DNA of 18,476 bases from a bacterium (GTDB taxonomy: Bacteria > JAJVIF01 > JAGGVT01). Position 1 is the stretch's first letter, and each line of letters opens with the position of its first letter. A model generated the notes under the pieces. It saw nothing but the letters and a program-made list of their open reading frames with translations. It ran no database searches and was not told the DNA's origin. Where the stretch lies: positions 1-18,476 of the forward strand of contig JAGGVT010000131.1 in the NCBI GenBank assembly GCA_021157815.1, read 5' to 3'. Made by a program: the position numbers and the translations under genes. Below are positions 848-15,567 of this stretch, one piece after another.

Positions 848-3800
848 TTATAAATCCACAAGGAGTTCTATCGATACGCAATTCAGCGATGCCACTCCGA
901 AATGTTCCTCGACTTTTCCCCTTATGACAAACGGGCCGTGGGTTTTGGCGAGGTGGGCGTACCTCTCATAGGCGGCGGGGAACATGGTTACCTCGTAGGT
1001 GCCGCTTAAATCCTCCATTGAGAAGAATTTCATCAGCCGTCCGGATTTGCGTGTGCGGATTGTTTTTTGCGCGACCATCCATCCGACCATCGTGATGCGC
1101 TTTTGGGCGTGGAGTATCATTTCCGATGCCGGGACAATGTTGAGCTTTTTTATTTCATCGGTGAAACACTCCAGCGGGTGGCAGGTGACAATTCGTCCGA
1201 AGTGTTTTAGTTCCATTTGGAGTTTTTTGCGCGTGGTGAAATCCGCGCGTTTTGCTATTTGCGGTGCGGGGTCGTGCGAGGGGAATAGTTCGGCGGGTGA
1301 TTGTTTCAGCGGTTTGTTGTAGATTTGGCTTTGCATGAGGAGTTGCGGGCGGGGTGTTCCGAGGGAATCGAGCGCGCCACATTCTATGAGAATTGTCAGT
1401 TGCGATGGTGTTATTGAGGTTCGGCGGACGAAATCGTGGAGGGATTTGAATACGCCGTCGGATTCACGTTTGGCGATGATTTTGTTGATTGTTTTTTGTT
1501 CGAGGTTTTTGATAATGCAGAACCCGAGTCGGATGTGTTGATGATTTTCTCCCCCCTTTAATCCCCCCGCGAGCGGGGGGAGATAAGAGCGAATAAAATT
1601 TCTGGAAAGACAGGAGCAAATGGAATTGCAGTTCTCTCTCTTCCCGTTTGCGAGAAGGGTTGGGCCAACTCCCTCCCCTTTCAGAGGGAAGGCTGGGGTG
1701 GGGGCAATTTCCGCAACATAAAGATACTTGCTGAAGTTGATATCCGGTGGGAGGATTTTGACTCCGAGACGCCGGGCCTCTGATATGTAGGCGCTTAAGC
1801 TGTAAAAGCCGCCGAAGTTTGACATTACACTTGCCATGAAAAGTGCGGGGAAATGGACTTTGAGGTATGCCATCTGGAAACTCAGGATTGCGAATGATGC
1901 TGAATGCCCTTTGCAGAATGAGTATCCGGCGAATGATTTTATCTGCCGCCAGATTTCGGTCGCGATTTCGATGTCGATCCCACGTTCGATACACGCATGG
2001 ATGAAATCATCCTCGAACTGTCGCATCGATTTCCGCCCCCTGCCCTTTCCGCTCATCGCGCGCCGAAGGAGGTCGGCCTCGGCGAGTGTCATTCCGGCGA
2101 TGTAGTGAACAACACGGATGACATCCTCCTGGTAAATCATTACGCCGTACGTTAGTTTCAAAATTTGTTCGAGTTTGGGGTGCAGATATTCCACTTCTGA
2201 TTGGTTATTGTGGCGTTTGATGTATTCATCCATCATTCCGCTTTCCGCGACACCGGGGCGGATTACTGAACTCGCCGCTGTGAGGCCCTCGAAATCGACG
2301 ACGTGGAGTTTTTGTAAAAGGCTGCGCATCGCGGGTGATTCAATATAGAAACATCCCATTGTTTTACCCGAGCGTATGAGTTCGATTGTTTTCGCGTTGT
2401 TGAAGACCATGTTCTGATTGTTGATGTCTGGCGCTTGTCCGCTTCTTTTGAGAGTGTCCATGATATCGGTGAATACGCCGAGAGAGCGGTTGCCGAGAAG
2501 GTCGATTTTAATTAGTCCGACAGCTTCGACGGCGCGCATCTCGAATTGCGTTACAGCAAGCCCTTTTCCGCTCTGGCCTGATTTTTGCAACGGGAGATGG
2601 TTGGTGATTGGGTCCGGTGTGATTACAATCCCGGCGCAGTGGATTGAGAGATGCTGCACGAATCCCTGAATTTTACCGGCGATGGCGAGAACGTCTTGCC
2701 AAATTTTCAGATCGAACGGAAACTCGCGCGTTTTCGGGTAATGCTCGCTCAGTTTCGACATGCTGCCATCCCATCCCCACGGGATTTTTTTTGAGACGGA
2801 AAGCGCCTCGTTTTCAGGGATGCCGTACGCCTTTGCGACCTCTCGAATCGCGCTTCTCATGCGAAATGTAACATGGGTTGAGATCATCGCGACACGGTCA
2901 CGGCCATGGCGTTCATAAACCCATTCGATTATTTCATCGCGGCGTTTCCAGCTGAAATCGATGTCGATGTCCGGGGGAACGTTTCGCCACGGATTGAGGA
3001 ATCGCTCGAAGAAAAGATCGCTTTTAATCGGGTCAACGTGAGTTAATTGAAGACAGTAGCTGACAAGCGAGTTTGCCGCGGAACCCCGTCCGATACAGGG
3101 GATATCCCTTTCACGAGCGAAGCGAACGATGTCCCAGACTGTGAGGAAATAGGAGGAAAATCCAAGGCGTTTAATCATGGAGAGTTCTGATTTCAGGCGG
3201 CGTTTGGCATCATCGGATGGATTCGGCATCCGGAGTTTCAAGCCATCATGCGCGATGCGGGATAAAAAGACGTGGTCGGTTTCACCGTTGGGTACCTGGA
3301 ACTGTGGAGATATCCAGCGGTAGAAAGTTGGGGTGTAATCACACATCGCTGCGATTTCATTTGTGCGTTCGATTGCGCCGGGGAATCGTTCACGCCATCG
3401 GGTGAGTTGGCCGATGTGTTTCAGGCAGCGGTCACGAGGTAAATAATCGGAATCTTTCAAGCGGTTGACTGAGGTTAGGAGTCCAATCGCACGTAGGACT
3501 TTGTGGGTTTCCCAGCGGGTTTCATCGGTGCCGTATGATGCCGCGGTTATGACTGTTTTGATTCCGAGCCGTTCGGCTTCGCGTGCGAGGCGGTAGTTTT
3601 GTTTGAGTGTGCGAGTGTTGTCGGATGCGATGATTTCTGCGTAGATGTTTCCCCCCCTTAATCCCCCCGCGAGCGGGGGGAGACAATTTGCTTCCTCCCT
3701 CTTCTGATCGTAGCCTGGGAATCCATTTCCCGGGGTTTTTGCGGACAGGCTGTCCGCGTTCCCGGGGGGGTGTTTTGAAAGCTCGGTCAGTAAATTCGGG

Positions 3801-4171
3801 TCGTGTACGAGAACAATTACGTTCTCATCCGCTTGCAGGAGTGTTTGGAGAAAATCGAAATTTTTGTCGAGGTGGCGGCTGGTGATTGTTTGTGAAATGA
3901 ATTCGTAGCCCTTTCTGTTTCGCGCGAGGATAATGGCGGTGCGGTGGGATACGTTTGGTTCAGTTAATTCGCAGCCGATGATTGGTTTGATTCCGGCATC
4001 TTTGGCGGCTTTTGCGAATGGTACAACGCCGGCAAGGGAATCGCGGTCGGTGATTGCGATTGCGCTCTGGTTGAATTTTGATGCCCACTCGATAATGTCC
4101 ATCGGGGATGATGCTCCGAAGTGTAGAGAGTGCGAGCTCGCGGTGTGCAGATTTATGAATGAGTTAGACAC
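848..4171 (-). CDS. dnaE: DNA polymerase III alpha subunit, DnaE2-like (non-replicative type), with in-frame repeat insertions
   Basis: The 1107-residue product is a C-family DNA polymerase. An N-terminal PHP domain (about 1-250) opens with NLHTASSHS and has AITDRDSL near 39-46. The palm domain has GRGSAANS at 361-368, PPDIDIDF at 399-406 (catalytic D401 and D403) and KIDLLG at 555-560 (D557), so the three catalytic aspartates are present. A finger/HhH region with AGYSFCKGHSASFA (near 748-761) and a C-terminal OB-fold (about 1025-1107) follow. GRGSAANS, PPDIDIDF and the short C-terminus fit the DnaE2/ImuC-like branch better than replicative DnaE1, which is inference from remembered family motifs. 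PHP metal ligands look lost: LHxH reads LHTA and TDH reads TDR. Two segments (about 133-175 and 822-878) are translated repeat elements. Translation starts at GTG 4171 at the predicted transcript start. No imuA or imuB partner lies nearby. Confidence 0.9.
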   Translation of the reverse strand: MSNSFINLHTASSHSLHFGASSPMDIIEWASKFNQSAIAITDRDSLAGVVPFAKAAKDAGIKPIIGCELTEPNVSHRTAIILARNRKGYEFISQTITSRHLDKNFDFLQTLLQADENVIVLVHDPNLLTELSKHPPGNADSLSAKTPGNGFPGYDQKREEANCLPPLAGGLRGGNIYAEIIASDNTRTLKQNYRLAREAERLGIKTVITAASYGTDETRWETHKVLRAIGLLTSVNRLKDSDYLPRDRCLKHIGQLTRWRERFPGAIERTNEIAAMCDYTPTFYRWISPQFQVPNGETDHVFLSRIAHDGLKLRMPNPSDDAKRRLKSELSMIKRLGFSSYFLTVWDIVRFARERDIPCIGRGSAANSLVSYCLQLTHVDPIKSDLFFERFLNPWRNVPPDIDIDFSWKRRDEIIEWVYERHGRDRVAMISTHVTFRMRSAIREVAKAYGIPENEALSVSKKIPWGWDGSMSKLSEHYPKTREFPFDLKIWQDVLAIAGKIQGFVQHLSIHCAGIVITPDPITNHLPLQKSGQSGKGLAVTQFEMRAVEAVGLIKIDLLGNRSLGVFTDIMDTLKRSGQAPDINNQNMVFNNAKTIELIRSGKTMGCFYIESPAMRSLLQKLHVVDFEGLTAASSVIRPGVAESGMMDEYIKRHNNQSEVEYLHPKLEQILKLTYGVMIYQEDVIRVVHYIAGMTLAEADLLRRAMSGKGRGRKSMRQFEDDFIHACIERGIDIEIATEIWRQIKSFAGYSFCKGHSASFAILSFQMAYLKVHFPALFMASVMSNFGGFYSLSAYISEARRLGVKILPPDINFSKYLYVAEIAPTPAFPLKGEGVGPTLLANGKRENCNSICSCLSRNFIRSYLPPLAGGLKGGENHQHIRLGFCIIKNLEQKTINKIIAKRESDGVFKSLHDFVRRTSITPSQLTILIECGALDSLGTPRPQLLMQSQIYNKPLKQSPAELFPSHDPAPQIAKRADFTTRKKLQMELKHFGRIVTCHPLECFTDEIKKLNIVPASEMILHAQKRITMVGWMVAQKTIRTRKSGRLMKFFSMEDLSGTYEVTMFPAAYERYAHLAKTHGPFVIRGKVEEHFGVASLNCVSIELLVDL
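1538..1708 (-). repeat. In-frame insertion in the polymerase gene: core of the MITE-like element
   Basis: Codons ~822-878 separate two stretches that are normally near-adjacent in the family (a PPDIN...YVAE part and an HIRLGF part). The inserted DNA has the same module order as the elements at 5562-5761 and 15309-15494. Module one is a C-tract, then TTTAATCCCCCC, then GCGAGCGGGGGG (1551-1582). Next comes an AT-richer centre, then a TTTGCGAGAAGGG-like word (near 1648-1659). Last is CTCCCTCCCC followed by GGCTGGGGTGGGGG (1669-1704). The terminal inverted repeats are not recognisable. The frame stays open for 57 codons and yields the peptide YLPPLAGGLKGG. Ends are approximate. Confidence 0.75.
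3647..3775 (-). repeat. In-frame composite palindrome insertion in the PHP domain of the polymerase gene
   Basis: Codons ~133-175 lie between the LLTEL and NIYAEI stretches of the PHP domain. The insertion holds one module of the MITE family (CCCCCCCTTAATCCCCCC then GCGAGCGGGGGG, 3651-3682), translated as LPPLAGGLRGG. Beside it is a different palindrome, GCGGACA-GGC-TGTCCGC, flanked by CCCGGGG and CCCGGGGGG tracts (about 3728-3770), translated as PPGNADSLSAKTPGNG. Two repeat families therefore sit side by side without breaking the frame. Boundaries are estimated from where the polymerase-like sequence resumes. Confidence 0.7.
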
Positions 4172-4205: not shown

Positions 4206-4285
4206 GAGGGTTTGGCGCAAATATGCGGAATCCGTTTTTACCGTAAATTTCGGTAAAATCAGAATGAGCAAAATAGGTAATAAAT

Positions 4286-4468
4286 CGGTGTCAGACACCT
4301 TGAGTGTCCTAATATAGGGTGTCGGACTCCTTCATATTAATTGCACAATGATGCTGTGAGGCATGAATCGATCGGTAGACGAGTTTTACAATATATGGCA
4401 TTTGATATTAACTTGGGATATCGGTGTCAGAGCCCTTGACAATATCATTATCAAGGGCTCTGACACCG
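4286..4468. repeat. REP-like palindrome cluster (CGGTGTCAGA family)
   Basis: A word of the form CGGTGTCAGAcaCCTTGA occurs at 4286-4303, again with two changes at 4422-4439, and as a perfect reverse complement of the latter at 4451-4468. A degenerate copy (GGTGTCGGACTCCTT) lies at 4318-4332. The 4422-4439/4451-4468 pair makes an 18-bp perfect stem with an 11-base loop. No T-run follows, so this is more like a REP element than a terminator. Confidence 0.7.
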
Positions 4469-4618
4469 GTAAAATCAACACATTTCATCCGCAAATCTGT
4501 TGCGGGTAATTTTACCGATAATCATAACCCACCAATATTTGCTCGCTGCAAGTCGCATCGTGTGATAAAATAAATAATGATTCAACTTTTCATATACGGA
4601 ATGTATCTTATATAACAG

Positions 4619-5530: not shown

Positions 5531-5561
5531 CGGTTTTGTGATGTGACAGCAGAGGGTTTAT

Positions 5562-5761
5562 GAGCGTGTCGGAAAAGGCATCGCAAACAAGTTTCCCCCC
5601 ACCCCAGCCCTCCCCGCGAGCGGGGAGGGAGCATACTGTTTCTTCCCTTCGCAAGCGTATGGATCGGAAATATTATTTACAAATGCAAAAAATATTTCCC
5701 CCCGCTCGCGGGGGGATTGAGGGGGGGATGAGATATAGAAACTACCTTTCCCGACACGCTC
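5562..5761. mobile_element. MITE-like element, copy 1 (200 bp, terminal inverted repeats, TTAT/TTAA flanks)
   Basis: The ends are inverted repeats: GAGCGTGTCGGAAAAGG at 5562-5578 and its complement at the right end to 5761, with one mismatch in 17. The right flank is TTAA (5762-5765) and the left TTAT (5558-5561), consistent with a duplicated TTAA target after one mutation. Inside are two GC-rich palindromic modules: CCACCCCAGCCCTCCCC plus GCGAGCGGGGAGGG (about 5594-5630) and CCCCCCGCTCGCGGGGGG (about 5697-5714). An AT-rich centre holding CCCTTCGCAAG lies between them. No transposase is encoded, so it would be non-autonomous. It aligns throughout with 15309-15494 in reverse orientation. Confidence 0.8.
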
Positions 5762-5790
5762 TTAAACATCCTGCGATTTTTTGTCTCACT

Positions 5791-6732
5791 ATGAAGAAAC
5801 TCAAAATTCCAATCATTGCGATAGCCCTGGTGTTGATCATTCAGGGGGTGCCTTATGCGGGAGATACAGGCAGGACCGGATTCGCGGTGGCATCCGACGC
5901 ATCGGTGTTTCTGCTTGTGCCATCGAGTGAAAAGAAAATCCATCACTTTAAATCAAGCGGAGTTTTAATTGGTAAATTCGGTGAGGAGGGTGCTGTCGAG
6001 GGGCAGCTGCTTATGCCGGTTGACATGGCCATTTACAAGAACAAACTCTATATCTTGGATCTTTTCGGTCCGCAGATAAAAGTGTTTTCTCTTTCAGGCA
6101 AACCGCTTGATGAGTTCGGCAGGGATTTCCCAAAGGATCAGAAACTTGTAAAACCGCTTATGATGCGCATCCGTTACAGCAAGACCGGTGAAAAGGATAT
6201 CCTGTATGTTCTGGACAAGGGGAAAAACCTGATAATGAAATACACGCTGGATGGCAAATTTATCGAGGGGCTTGACCTTCCGCCGGATGATGAGAGGTAT
6301 TTCCACTGGATGACATCGTTTAATGTGGACAGCGGGGATAATCTGTGGTTTACGACTGATTCAATCGACGATACAGCGCTTAGGCATGTTCTTGTTTATG
6401 ATGAAGCCGGATTCCCGAAAAACGATTTCAGCATGACCAAGATTGGCGACGGGCTTGGCTTTTTGTCGGATATAATCCCGCTTGAGGATGGAGAGTATAT
6501 TGTCGCGGACAGTTCGCTGGATATGTCATCGTTGTACACAGGCGCTATTATGCTTTTCACCGCCACTGAGCCATCCGGGCAATATTCAATTTATGATACG
6601 AATAAATTCAAGTTTTATTCCCCTGAACGGATTTCGATTGTCGGCAGTTCGATGTATGTCCTTACCAGCAATAATCTGCTTTTGAAGTTGGATAAGAATT
6701 ATCATGTTTTGAAGACGTGGAATCTGCAGTAA
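5791..6732 (+). CDS. Secreted NHL-type (six-bladed) beta-propeller protein
   Basis: From ATG 5791 the product is 313 residues with a clear signal peptide: MKKLK, hydrophobic IPIIAIALVLIIQG, and a likely cleavage near PYAGD. The rest is a set of short beta-propeller blades. Examples are GVLIGKFGEEGAVEGQLLMP-type NHL strands near 55-75, LYILDLFGPQIKVFSLSGK, ILYVLDKGKNLIMKYTLDGK and MYVLTSNNLLLKLDKNYHVLKTW. NHL-like propellers are usually exported binding or scaffold modules; ligand and partner are not known here. The frame is open upstream to an ATG at 5560, but those 77 codons are translated MITE DNA, so 5791 is preferred. No Shine-Dalgarno motif is visible. It may be co-transcribed with the TPR gene ending at 5530. 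Confidence 0.75.
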   Translation: MKKLKIPIIAIALVLIIQGVPYAGDTGRTGFAVASDASVFLLVPSSEKKIHHFKSSGVLIGKFGEEGAVEGQLLMPVDMAIYKNKLYILDLFGPQIKVFSLSGKPLDEFGRDFPKDQKLVKPLMMRIRYSKTGEKDILYVLDKGKNLIMKYTLDGKFIEGLDLPPDDERYFHWMTSFNVDSGDNLWFTTDSIDDTALRHVLVYDEAGFPKNDFSMTKIGDGLGFLSDIIPLEDGEYIVADSSLDMSSLYTGAIMLFTATEPSGQYSIYDTNKFKFYSPERISIVGSSMYVLTSNNLLLKLDKNYHVLKTWNLQ

Positions 6733-7496: not shown

Positions 7497-7640
7497 TAAC
7501 TTGCTAACTTGCTAACCTGCTAACCTGCTAACTTTCTAACCTGCTAACCTGCTAACTTTCTAACCTGCTAACCTGCTAACCTGCTAACTTGCTAACCTGC
7601 TAACCTGCTAACCTGCTAACTTGCTAACCTGCTAACTTGC
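7497..7640. repeat. Tandem array of 18 copies of an 8-bp unit (TAACYTGC)
   Basis: From 7497 the sequence is 18 consecutive 8-bp units: twelve... variants are TAACCTGC (most common), TAACTTGC and TAACTTTC. A partial unit TAACCCTC follows at 7641. Some units form a higher-order pattern, with TAACTTTC at units 5 and 8. There are no unique spacers, so it is a micro/minisatellite and not a CRISPR. It begins 11 bp after the asnA stop codon in the direction of asnA transcription. Confidence 0.9.
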
Positions 7641-7651
7641 TAACCCTCTTT

Positions 7652-8782
7652 TTACTGAAGCAGGTGGATATTCTTATCCGCGCACATGTCTCGCAGCACT
7701 TTAGGCCAGACTGTAACGCTGCATTCGCCAAGTGCGACCTTTTTAAGCAAGAGGCTGTAAGTGCGTGACTGTCCGATACCGCCGCCGATACTCAGCGGGA
7801 TTTCATCGTCCAGAATCATTTTGTGGTATGGCATTTCAAGAAAATCAAGCTGGCCTGTTATTTCAAGCTGCTGTTTGAGTGTTTCTTTTGTGATGCGGAT
7901 ACCCATTGATGTCAGCTCATGGCGCCGTTTTGTAACGGGATTATAGACAAGAATGTCGCCGTTAAGGCCGTGCATTGGGCGGCCATCCTCGGAAACTGTT
8001 TCCGTGACCCAGTCGTCATAATCCGCCGCTCGCATTTCATGCGGATAGCCATCTGCCAGCTTCCAGCCGATTCCGATGATAAAGACCGCGGGGTATTCTT
8101 TGATTATCGCGGTTTCACGTTCTTTTCGCGGCATATCAGGATATTTCGCAAGAATGTCTTCCGCGTGGATGAAATGAAGTTCCTCGGGAAGGCCTGGATA
8201 TTTGTCTGTTTTAAGCTGAGGGAACATATCCTGCGCGAGTTTTTCAGCGCCTGTGATAACTTTCCAGATTTTTTTAACAACCTCTTTCAGATAGGCAAGG
8301 CTTCGCTGTTCAGGTGTGATGACCAGTTCCCAGTCCCACTGGTCAACGTATGAACTGTGGTCATGATCGAGGAAATAATCTTTTCGAACCGCTCGCATGT
8401 CGGTGTAGAGTCCCTCGCCGACCTTCATGCCGAACTGTTTAAGCGCGAATCGTTTCCACTTGGTCGCTGCCTGAACGACCTGAGCGTTAACCGGATTCTT
8501 CTCATAATCGTTTTTGATGTAGAAATCGATTGGCGTTCGTGAGCCGTCGCGGTCGAGGTAATCGTTCATGCCGCAATCTCTGTCCATAATCAATGGACTT
8601 TCCACACGAATCAGGTTGAGCTGTTTGCTCAAACCGTCCTCGATGTAGTTCTTCACCGCAGTAATAGCAATCTGCGTTTCCTTTGGATTAAGCAGCGGCG
8701 TGTAATCATCAGGAAGAACGCCTCTAAGAACATCATAATCTCCGATACCCGGACCTGCCAGGTCTGCCTTCTTGTCTGCCAT
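7652..8782 (-). CDS. asnA: Aspartate--ammonia ligase (asparagine synthetase A)
   Basis: AsnA makes L-asparagine from aspartate, ammonia and ATP in the cytoplasm. The 376-residue product has the conserved blocks of this class II aminoacyl-tRNA-synthetase-like family: SYVDQWDWELVI, a KYPDMPRKERETAI stretch, ADYDDWVTETV, HGLNGDILVYNPV, LTSMGIRI and near the C-terminus LSIGGGIGQSR (about 330-340). The frame extends upstream to 8833, but ATG 8782 is chosen because GGAG lies 10 bases before it and the longer version adds only an arginine-rich stretch. E. coli AsnA is about 330 residues; the excess here is mostly an N-terminal extension before the aligned core. It appears to be a single-gene transcript with its own terminator at 7443-7467. 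Confidence 0.95.
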   Translation of the reverse strand: MADKKADLAGPGIGDYDVLRGVLPDDYTPLLNPKETQIAITAVKNYIEDGLSKQLNLIRVESPLIMDRDCGMNDYLDRDGSRTPIDFYIKNDYEKNPVNAQVVQAATKWKRFALKQFGMKVGEGLYTDMRAVRKDYFLDHDHSSYVDQWDWELVITPEQRSLAYLKEVVKKIWKVITGAEKLAQDMFPQLKTDKYPGLPEELHFIHAEDILAKYPDMPRKERETAIIKEYPAVFIIGIGWKLADGYPHEMRAADYDDWVTETVSEDGRPMHGLNGDILVYNPVTKRRHELTSMGIRITKETLKQQLEITGQLDFLEMPYHKMILDDEIPLSIGGGIGQSRTYSLLLKKVALGECSVTVWPKVLRDMCADKNIHLLQ

Positions 8783-8833
8783 AATTATCAATCTCCGACG
8801 TATTAGTGATTTACTATTTCCAAACAGACGCAT

Positions 8834-15267: not shown

Positions 15268-15308
15268 TTCGTTTGCATTTTTTCCCTCCTGAATAACAAA
15301 AAGCTTAA

Positions 15309-15494
15309 GAACCTGTCGGAAAAGGTTGTTTTTATATCGCATCCCCCCGCGAGCGGGGGGAAATGTTTTTTGCATTTGCATACGATATATCCGGTCTTTA
15401 CACTTGCGAAGGGAAAATACAACATTCTCCCTCCCCGCTCGCGGGGAGGGCCGGGGTGGGGGAGATTGATTGCGTTACCTTTCCCAACACGCTC
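15309..15494. mobile_element. MITE-like element, copy 2 (186 bp, perfect TTAA target duplication)
   Basis: The element is flanked on both sides by TTAA (15305-15308 and 15495-15498). Its terminal inverted repeats (GAACCTGTCGGAAAAGG at the left; complement of GAGCGTGTTGGGAAAGG at the right) match at 13 of 17 positions. The inner modules are CCCCCCGCGAGCGGGGGG (about 15342-15360), the centre word CTTGCGAAGGG (15404-15414), and CTCCCTCCCCGCTCGCGGGGAGGG plus CCGGGGTGGGGG (about 15427-15463). This is copy 1 in reverse order and strand. It lies 41 bp after the PSP1 stop, where its palindromes could also act as a transcript end. Confidence 0.85.
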
Positions 15495-15567
15495 TTAATC
15501 CCAGACCTACATTTAATCCCCATTGAGTAATTCAATACAGGCATAAACCAATATGAGTAATATATGG

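Follow-up and report, generated by a model that had tools for sequence, protein, structure and literature searches.

A gene for a DnaE-type polymerase contains a stretch of codons that also resembles an intergenic repeat of the same genome, which raises the question of whether a dispersed palindromic element can settle inside a conserved coding sequence and be kept in frame. The window, meaning the whole stretch of DNA that was analyzed (18,476 nucleotides), is contig 123 of an uncultured bacterium's MAG of 3.2 Mb in 221 contigs with 90.9% completeness. The preliminary description had read some 57 codons of the polymerase gene as the core of a MITE-like element translated in frame. We followed up this proposal with homologue alignments, structure prediction, and a survey of repeats in the host genome and in a genome collection with three genomes of the host's class and none of its family.

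A second DnaE with two private insertions

The polymerase of the window (Table 1) is the second DnaE of the genome and DnaE2-like, while the other one, a protein of 1,191 aa encoded on contig C80, is the main DnaE. Pfam matches in the window product are PHP, DNA_pol3_alpha, finger, HHH_6, and OB; as domains, the protein has PHP, NTPase, finger, HHH, and OB. The score for TIGR00594 is above the cutoff. The curated error-prone polymerase model NF004225 gives 661 bits against a cutoff of 939, and the DnaE model NF004226 gives 746 against a cutoff of 1002. With the inserts removed, the protein has about 1015 aa, the size of a DnaE2/ImuC, a second DnaE of about 1000 to 1080 aa without a long C-terminus. 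As the curated error-prone cutoff is not reached, DnaE2-like is the careful name; the enzyme is probably error-prone (mutation-prone). No ImuA or ImuB homologue was recognized by eye among the listed ORFs of the window.

Alignment with 39 homologues set the extent of insertion I. Matches to homologues, whose identity reaches 50%, break off at residue ~820 and begin again at ~878, and the same residues were found in no homologous DnaE. The stretch of residues ~822 to 878 described at first is indeed private, with its limits refined to 823 to 877. Insertion I splits the Pfam HHH_6 match, which spans protein positions 803 to 944 for a model of 90 positions. The gene has another in-frame insertion, insertion II, which is missing from the preliminary description; it directly follows the PHP core and lengthens the protein by about 37 residues. 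The uninserted state of both sites is deduced from homologues that share 50% identity or less with the protein. The peptides encoded inside the inserts include GEGVGPTLLANGK and EEANCLPPLAGGLR.

AlphaFold2 gave a confident fold for the whole protein (mean pLDDT of 86.9, pTM of 0.86), with pLDDT below 50 only at residues 136 to 171, 826 to 875, and 955 to 965. Insertion I is flanked in the model by short strands at 819 to 821 and 879 to 881, and is predicted to form a disordered stretch in a beta-turn of the HHH domain. Such a gene, with two sites and three repeats, might be in decay, that is, a dispensable polymerase collecting insertions and nonfunctional though open, and second polymerases are usually dispensable. 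We consider decay unlikely, since the 1107-codon frame is intact, the catalytic and structural columns are invariant, and the fold is confident. As the preliminary description had stated, the ORF is open through insertion I, and neither a stop nor a frameshift occurs elsewhere in it. The catalytic aspartates (D401, D403, and D557), also described as kept, are in invariant alignment columns. The inserts would be translated, and the enzyme presumably retains polymerase activity.

Upstream of the polymerase gene, at 4284 to 4471, there are repeats of the TCGGTGTCAGACACCTTGA type, one pair of which is a near-perfect inverted repeat (4419 to 4471). Farther along the window, at 7497 to 7645, 18.6 tandem copies of TAACCTGC lie just downstream of an asnA-like gene (7652 to 8833, minus strand).

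Table 1. Features of the polymerase gene and of two intergenic elements (positions in the window)
Feature	Position	Strand	Details
DnaE-type polymerase III alpha subunit, second in genome, DnaE2-like	848..4171	-	1107 aa, GTG start; Pfam, TIGR00594
Insertion I (codons 823-877), lacking in homologous DnaE	1541..1705	-	Alignment; AlphaFold2
Module A of core (CCCCCCTTTAATCCCCCCGCGAGCGGGGGGA), minus strand reading LPPLAGGLKGG	1550..1581	+	
Module B of core, degenerate (GCCCCCACCCCAGCCTTCCCTCTGAAAGGGGAGGGAG), read as APTPAFPLKGEGV	1669..1706	-	
Insertion II, codons ~135-172, absent from homologues	3650..3776	-	Alignment; AlphaFold2 pLDDT <50 at 136-171
Second module A copy, read as LPPLAGGLRGG	3650..3681	+	
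GTAG-tagged REP (GTAGCCTGGGAATCCATTTCCCGGG)	3710..3734	+	One of 47 in sampled loci
Third repeat, with GCGGACAGGCTGTCCGC palindrome	3738..3766	+	At least two other places, C219:9667 and C215:9426
Full intergenic element: outer inverted repeat, B, AT-rich center, A, outer inverted repeat	5558..5765	.	
Full intergenic element, opposite orientation to the 5558..5765 copy	15305..15498	.	

Probable origin of the inserts in repeats of the host genome

In the 3.2-Mb genome, the 14-base stem CCCCGCGAGCGGGG was found at 144 places when up to one mismatch was allowed, and a reversed-pattern control at 0, so that the repeat is not a product of chance. From fetched stretches covering nearly all stem occurrences, about 75 core elements were resolved, which bears out the proposal that the stretch in the polymerase gene belongs to a genome-wide repeat. 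The typical element is bounded on both sides by the outer inverted repeat TTAAGAGCGTGTCGGAAAAGG, between whose two copies come, in this order, module A (CCCCCCCTTAATCCCCCCGCGAGCGGGGGGA), an AT-rich center, and module B (the reverse of CCCCCACCCCAGCCCTCCCCGCGAGCGGGGAGGGAG). The core from A to B comprises two stems and measures about 130 to 155 nt, and the outer inverted repeats of many intergenic copies are about 21 bp long; some intergenic copies are the A-to-B core alone, without them. Many elements are nested within further palindromes (AGCAGAGGGTTT..AAACCCTCTGCT; CGTCATTCCCGCGAAAG..CTTTCGCGGGAATGACG), one of which is itself a CGTC-type REP. At L091:2851-3153, six module A units are arranged in tandem with 46-bp spacing and one module B at the end. 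Rfam gave no match in the window.

The exact pattern of module A has no match in the other records of the collection (84,980 species genomes). An exact 18-base core gave 45 matches in the host genome versus 1 in 384 other genomes; this lone foreign match was judged to be due to chance, and it does not come from any of the three genomes of the host's class. Going by these searches, the A/B module is almost confined to the host lineage.

On the plus strand, positions 1550 to 1706 read TCCCCCCTTTAATCCCCCCGCGAGCGGGGGGAGAT ... CCCGTTTGCGAGAAGGGTTGGGCCAA CTCCCTCCCCTTTCAGAGGGAAGGCTGGGGTGGGGGCA, with the modules present as originally described. The module order shared with the intergenic copies holds for the core modules and not for the outer repeats or the AT-rich center: insertion I is the A-to-B core only, and its center matches no center of the intergenic copies. 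Likewise, the term MITE-like suits the copies with outer inverted repeats and not the copy in the polymerase gene. The insert as defined by alignment (165 nt) slightly exceeds the core in length (~155 nt), and its exact ends are uncertain. By its sequence, insertion I is an in-frame copy of the core of the genome's palindromic repeat.

We also considered a repeat-driven misassembly or a chimera, which could have put repeats into the gene. The MAG is broken at the elements, with many contigs ending inside one, so that the element limits the assembly. Nevertheless, both inserts are internal and in frame, with continuous homologous coding sequence on their flanks, and a misjoin would need to have preserved the frame twice. 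Moreover, the center and the degenerate B module of insertion I have no close match in any other copy. An assembly artifact is thus very improbable.

Insertion II, also in frame, is composite: its DNA matches three repeat types, with module A joined to a GTAG REP and to a further palindromic repeat. Its GTAG part has the tag and the stem-loop of such REPs, is multicopy, and occurs in a genome with RAYT genes and flanking REPs. CGTC REPs are present as well, with 61 genome-wide matches, and at 627 to 714 of the window two REPs of this type stand head to head (CGTCATTCCCGCGAAAGCGGGAATCCATT). The A/B core belongs to neither type: the GTAG tag is absent from its ends, and no CGTC tag with an AT-starting stem was found in it. 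Nine Y1/RAYT-family genes were found in the genome, two of them flanked by GTAG/GTAA-CCCGG REPs. These loci, with RAYT-type transposase genes at L236:1360-1884 and L237:406-942 and the GTAG/GTAA-CCCGG palindromes on their flanks, look like REPtrons. By analogy, the GTAG part of insertion II may plausibly have been moved by RAYT-type HUH transposases. No autonomous partner with the outer repeats of the A/B element was found near four DDE_Tnp_1 matches or eight of the nine Y1 genes, and no clear target-site duplication was seen by eye at the copies in the polymerase gene.

The survey covered ~75 elements of the core type, 47 REPs with a GTAG tag, and 61 with a CGTC tag, and clear in-frame copies in the middle of a gene were found only in the polymerase gene of the window. 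The main DnaE on C80 contains none of the core elements that were located. ORFs at seven other loci were rejected as in-gene copies, three (L081, L261, and L262) as the element lies upstream of the signal peptide and four (L111, L115, L239, and L347) as the frames look spurious. Taken together, it is very likely that dispersed palindromic repeats of this genome have twice entered the coding sequence of the second polymerase, the DnaE2-like one, presumably by transposition, and stayed in frame.

Precedents and other DnaE2-like genes

Di Nocera, De Gregorio and Rocco described in 2013 GTAG and CGTC REPs in frame in genes of DNA synthesis and repair, including DnaE2, with the REP-bearing repair genes sometimes the sole decorated ORFs of a species (PMC3733652). 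A bias toward repair genes was proposed there and, without a test, an effect of intragenic REPs on mutability. The host shares with these cases the in-frame palindromes in DnaE2, the composite inserts, the lone decorated ORF, and the RAYT genes flanked by REPs. It differs in that insertion I and the module A parts have no GTAG or CGTC tag, and the two-stem element from A to B, found in another lineage, is longer than the REPs of that study and was not found described in it. REPs nested in larger palindromes are also known (PMC3733652); full host elements likewise sit inside other palindromes, though with different sequences.

The parallel drawn at first was with Rickettsia palindromic elements (RPEs), palindromic sequences of ~150 bp that occur as in-frame insertions in genes unrelated to one another, where the resulting peptides are predicted to do no harm, and of which nearly half lie within genes (PMC10969869). 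This parallel is sound as a process, as the polymerase copies are likewise palindromic insertions in frame within a conserved gene. The organism, however, is another one, and here a single gene is hit; that the sequences differ is the judgment of the preliminary description. Intragenic REPs are the closer precedent. With MITEs, the host elements share high copy number and many intergenic copies with ~21-bp outer inverted repeats, whereas the polymerase-gene copies are missing terminal inverted repeats, with no clear target duplication by eye and no autonomous partner near the transposase genes searched.

An alignment of 110 DnaE proteins was searched for private insertions, and several DnaE2-like ORFs had insertions with hairpin DNA. 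In three further genomes (G059, G061, and G062), the DnaE2-like gene bears independent in-frame insertions that repeat elsewhere in the respective genome, strong in two; the inserted repeats have high copy number in G059 and G061 and a few copies in G062. In G059 there are two insertion sites, one of them in the loop that also bears insertion I. For the private DnaE2 insertions of G060, G063, and G035, a clearly multicopy state could not be confirmed, and that of G001 is weak as a genomic repeat. Among the loci with such insertions, the DnaE2-like gene of a groundwater Planctomycetota MAG has two in-frame, high-copy repeats of its own genome (L153:5157-5273 and 5979-6083), one in the loop of insertion I, and the DnaE2-like gene at L192 has an in-frame hairpin insertion (L192:3078-3194) that is a high-copy repeat, with more than 100 matches in its own genome.

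Since the beta-turn of insertion I bears other insertions in some homologues (L153, L171, L225, and L158), one might suppose that the extra residues are an ancient DnaE2 domain from which the intergenic elements derive. Yet the loop insertions differ in sequence, a search for relatives in which these residues form a conserved domain found none, and the gene copy is much less regular than the ~75 intergenic ones, of which many have outer repeats. We regard this derivation as hardly conceivable.

Nothing comparable was found in the DnaE1 loci of the same genomes. The four strongest DnaE2 ORFs, two of which are the same contig, had hairpin scores of at least 16, versus at most 14.5 in the DnaE1 controls. 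One sequence placed among these controls, L283, has a hairpin score and position identical to those of L171 and is probably that DnaE2-like gene itself. In-frame repeats were seen in 3 to 5 of ~90 DnaE2 and 0 of ~32 DnaE1, numbers too small to show a difference.

Survival of the inserts and significance

The two insertions could have survived because of a combination of features. The core element, A to B, adds ~55 residues in the beta-turn of the HHH region, and module A, the GTAG REP, and the third repeat ~37 residues after the PHP core. The GC-rich stems have few stop codons, leaving the element open in some frames, and the net length is a multiple of three. Both sites are loops, with disorder predicted for the added residues, and in an accessory gene partial impairment may be tolerated. 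Core elements have on average about 2 of 6 frames open, and in 38 of 43 one frame or more is free of stops, which makes in-frame survival possible but selective.

A bolder reading is that DnaE2-like genes are preferred or selected targets, and that the inserts alter the polymerase, in a mutator or regulatory sense, and are kept for that. All clear mid-gene copies of the host are in one gene, and with an even spread of in-frame survivors over ~2.56 Mb of coding sequence (80% ORF cover), the probability that this 3-kb gene is hit again would be ~0.1%. The in-frame repeats of G059, G061, and G062, with G059 hit in the same loop, and the bias toward repair genes proposed in 2013 (PMC3733652) point the same way. 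An accessory gene with indel-tolerant loops would nevertheless give the same pattern, and essential genes are avoided by the copies anyway. The comparison of DnaE2 with DnaE1 is too small to establish preference, and both inserts are predicted to be disordered, in loops away from the conserved catalytic motifs. We therefore hold selected targeting to be doubtful. It is similarly a long shot that DnaE2-like genes across phyla have been invaded repeatedly and nonrandomly, in frame and often in the same loop, by whatever palindromic repeat the genome carries, through SOS-type synthesis or a useful tuning of mutagenesis.

Insertion of the host's own repeats into its accessory polymerase gene remains the preferred reading. 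The phenomenon is already known and little understood; new are the repeat family and lineage and the second, composite insertion in the same gene. Selfish palindromes turned into protein sequence might supply proteins with new segments, and repair-polymerase genes as their favored targets are a suggestion that has stood since 2013. The host genome is a clean case: of its three repeat families, nearly every copy that was located has been examined, and a single gene holds insertions at two sites. Along with the other DnaE2-like genes that carry their own genomes' repeats, it makes the question of target bias countable.
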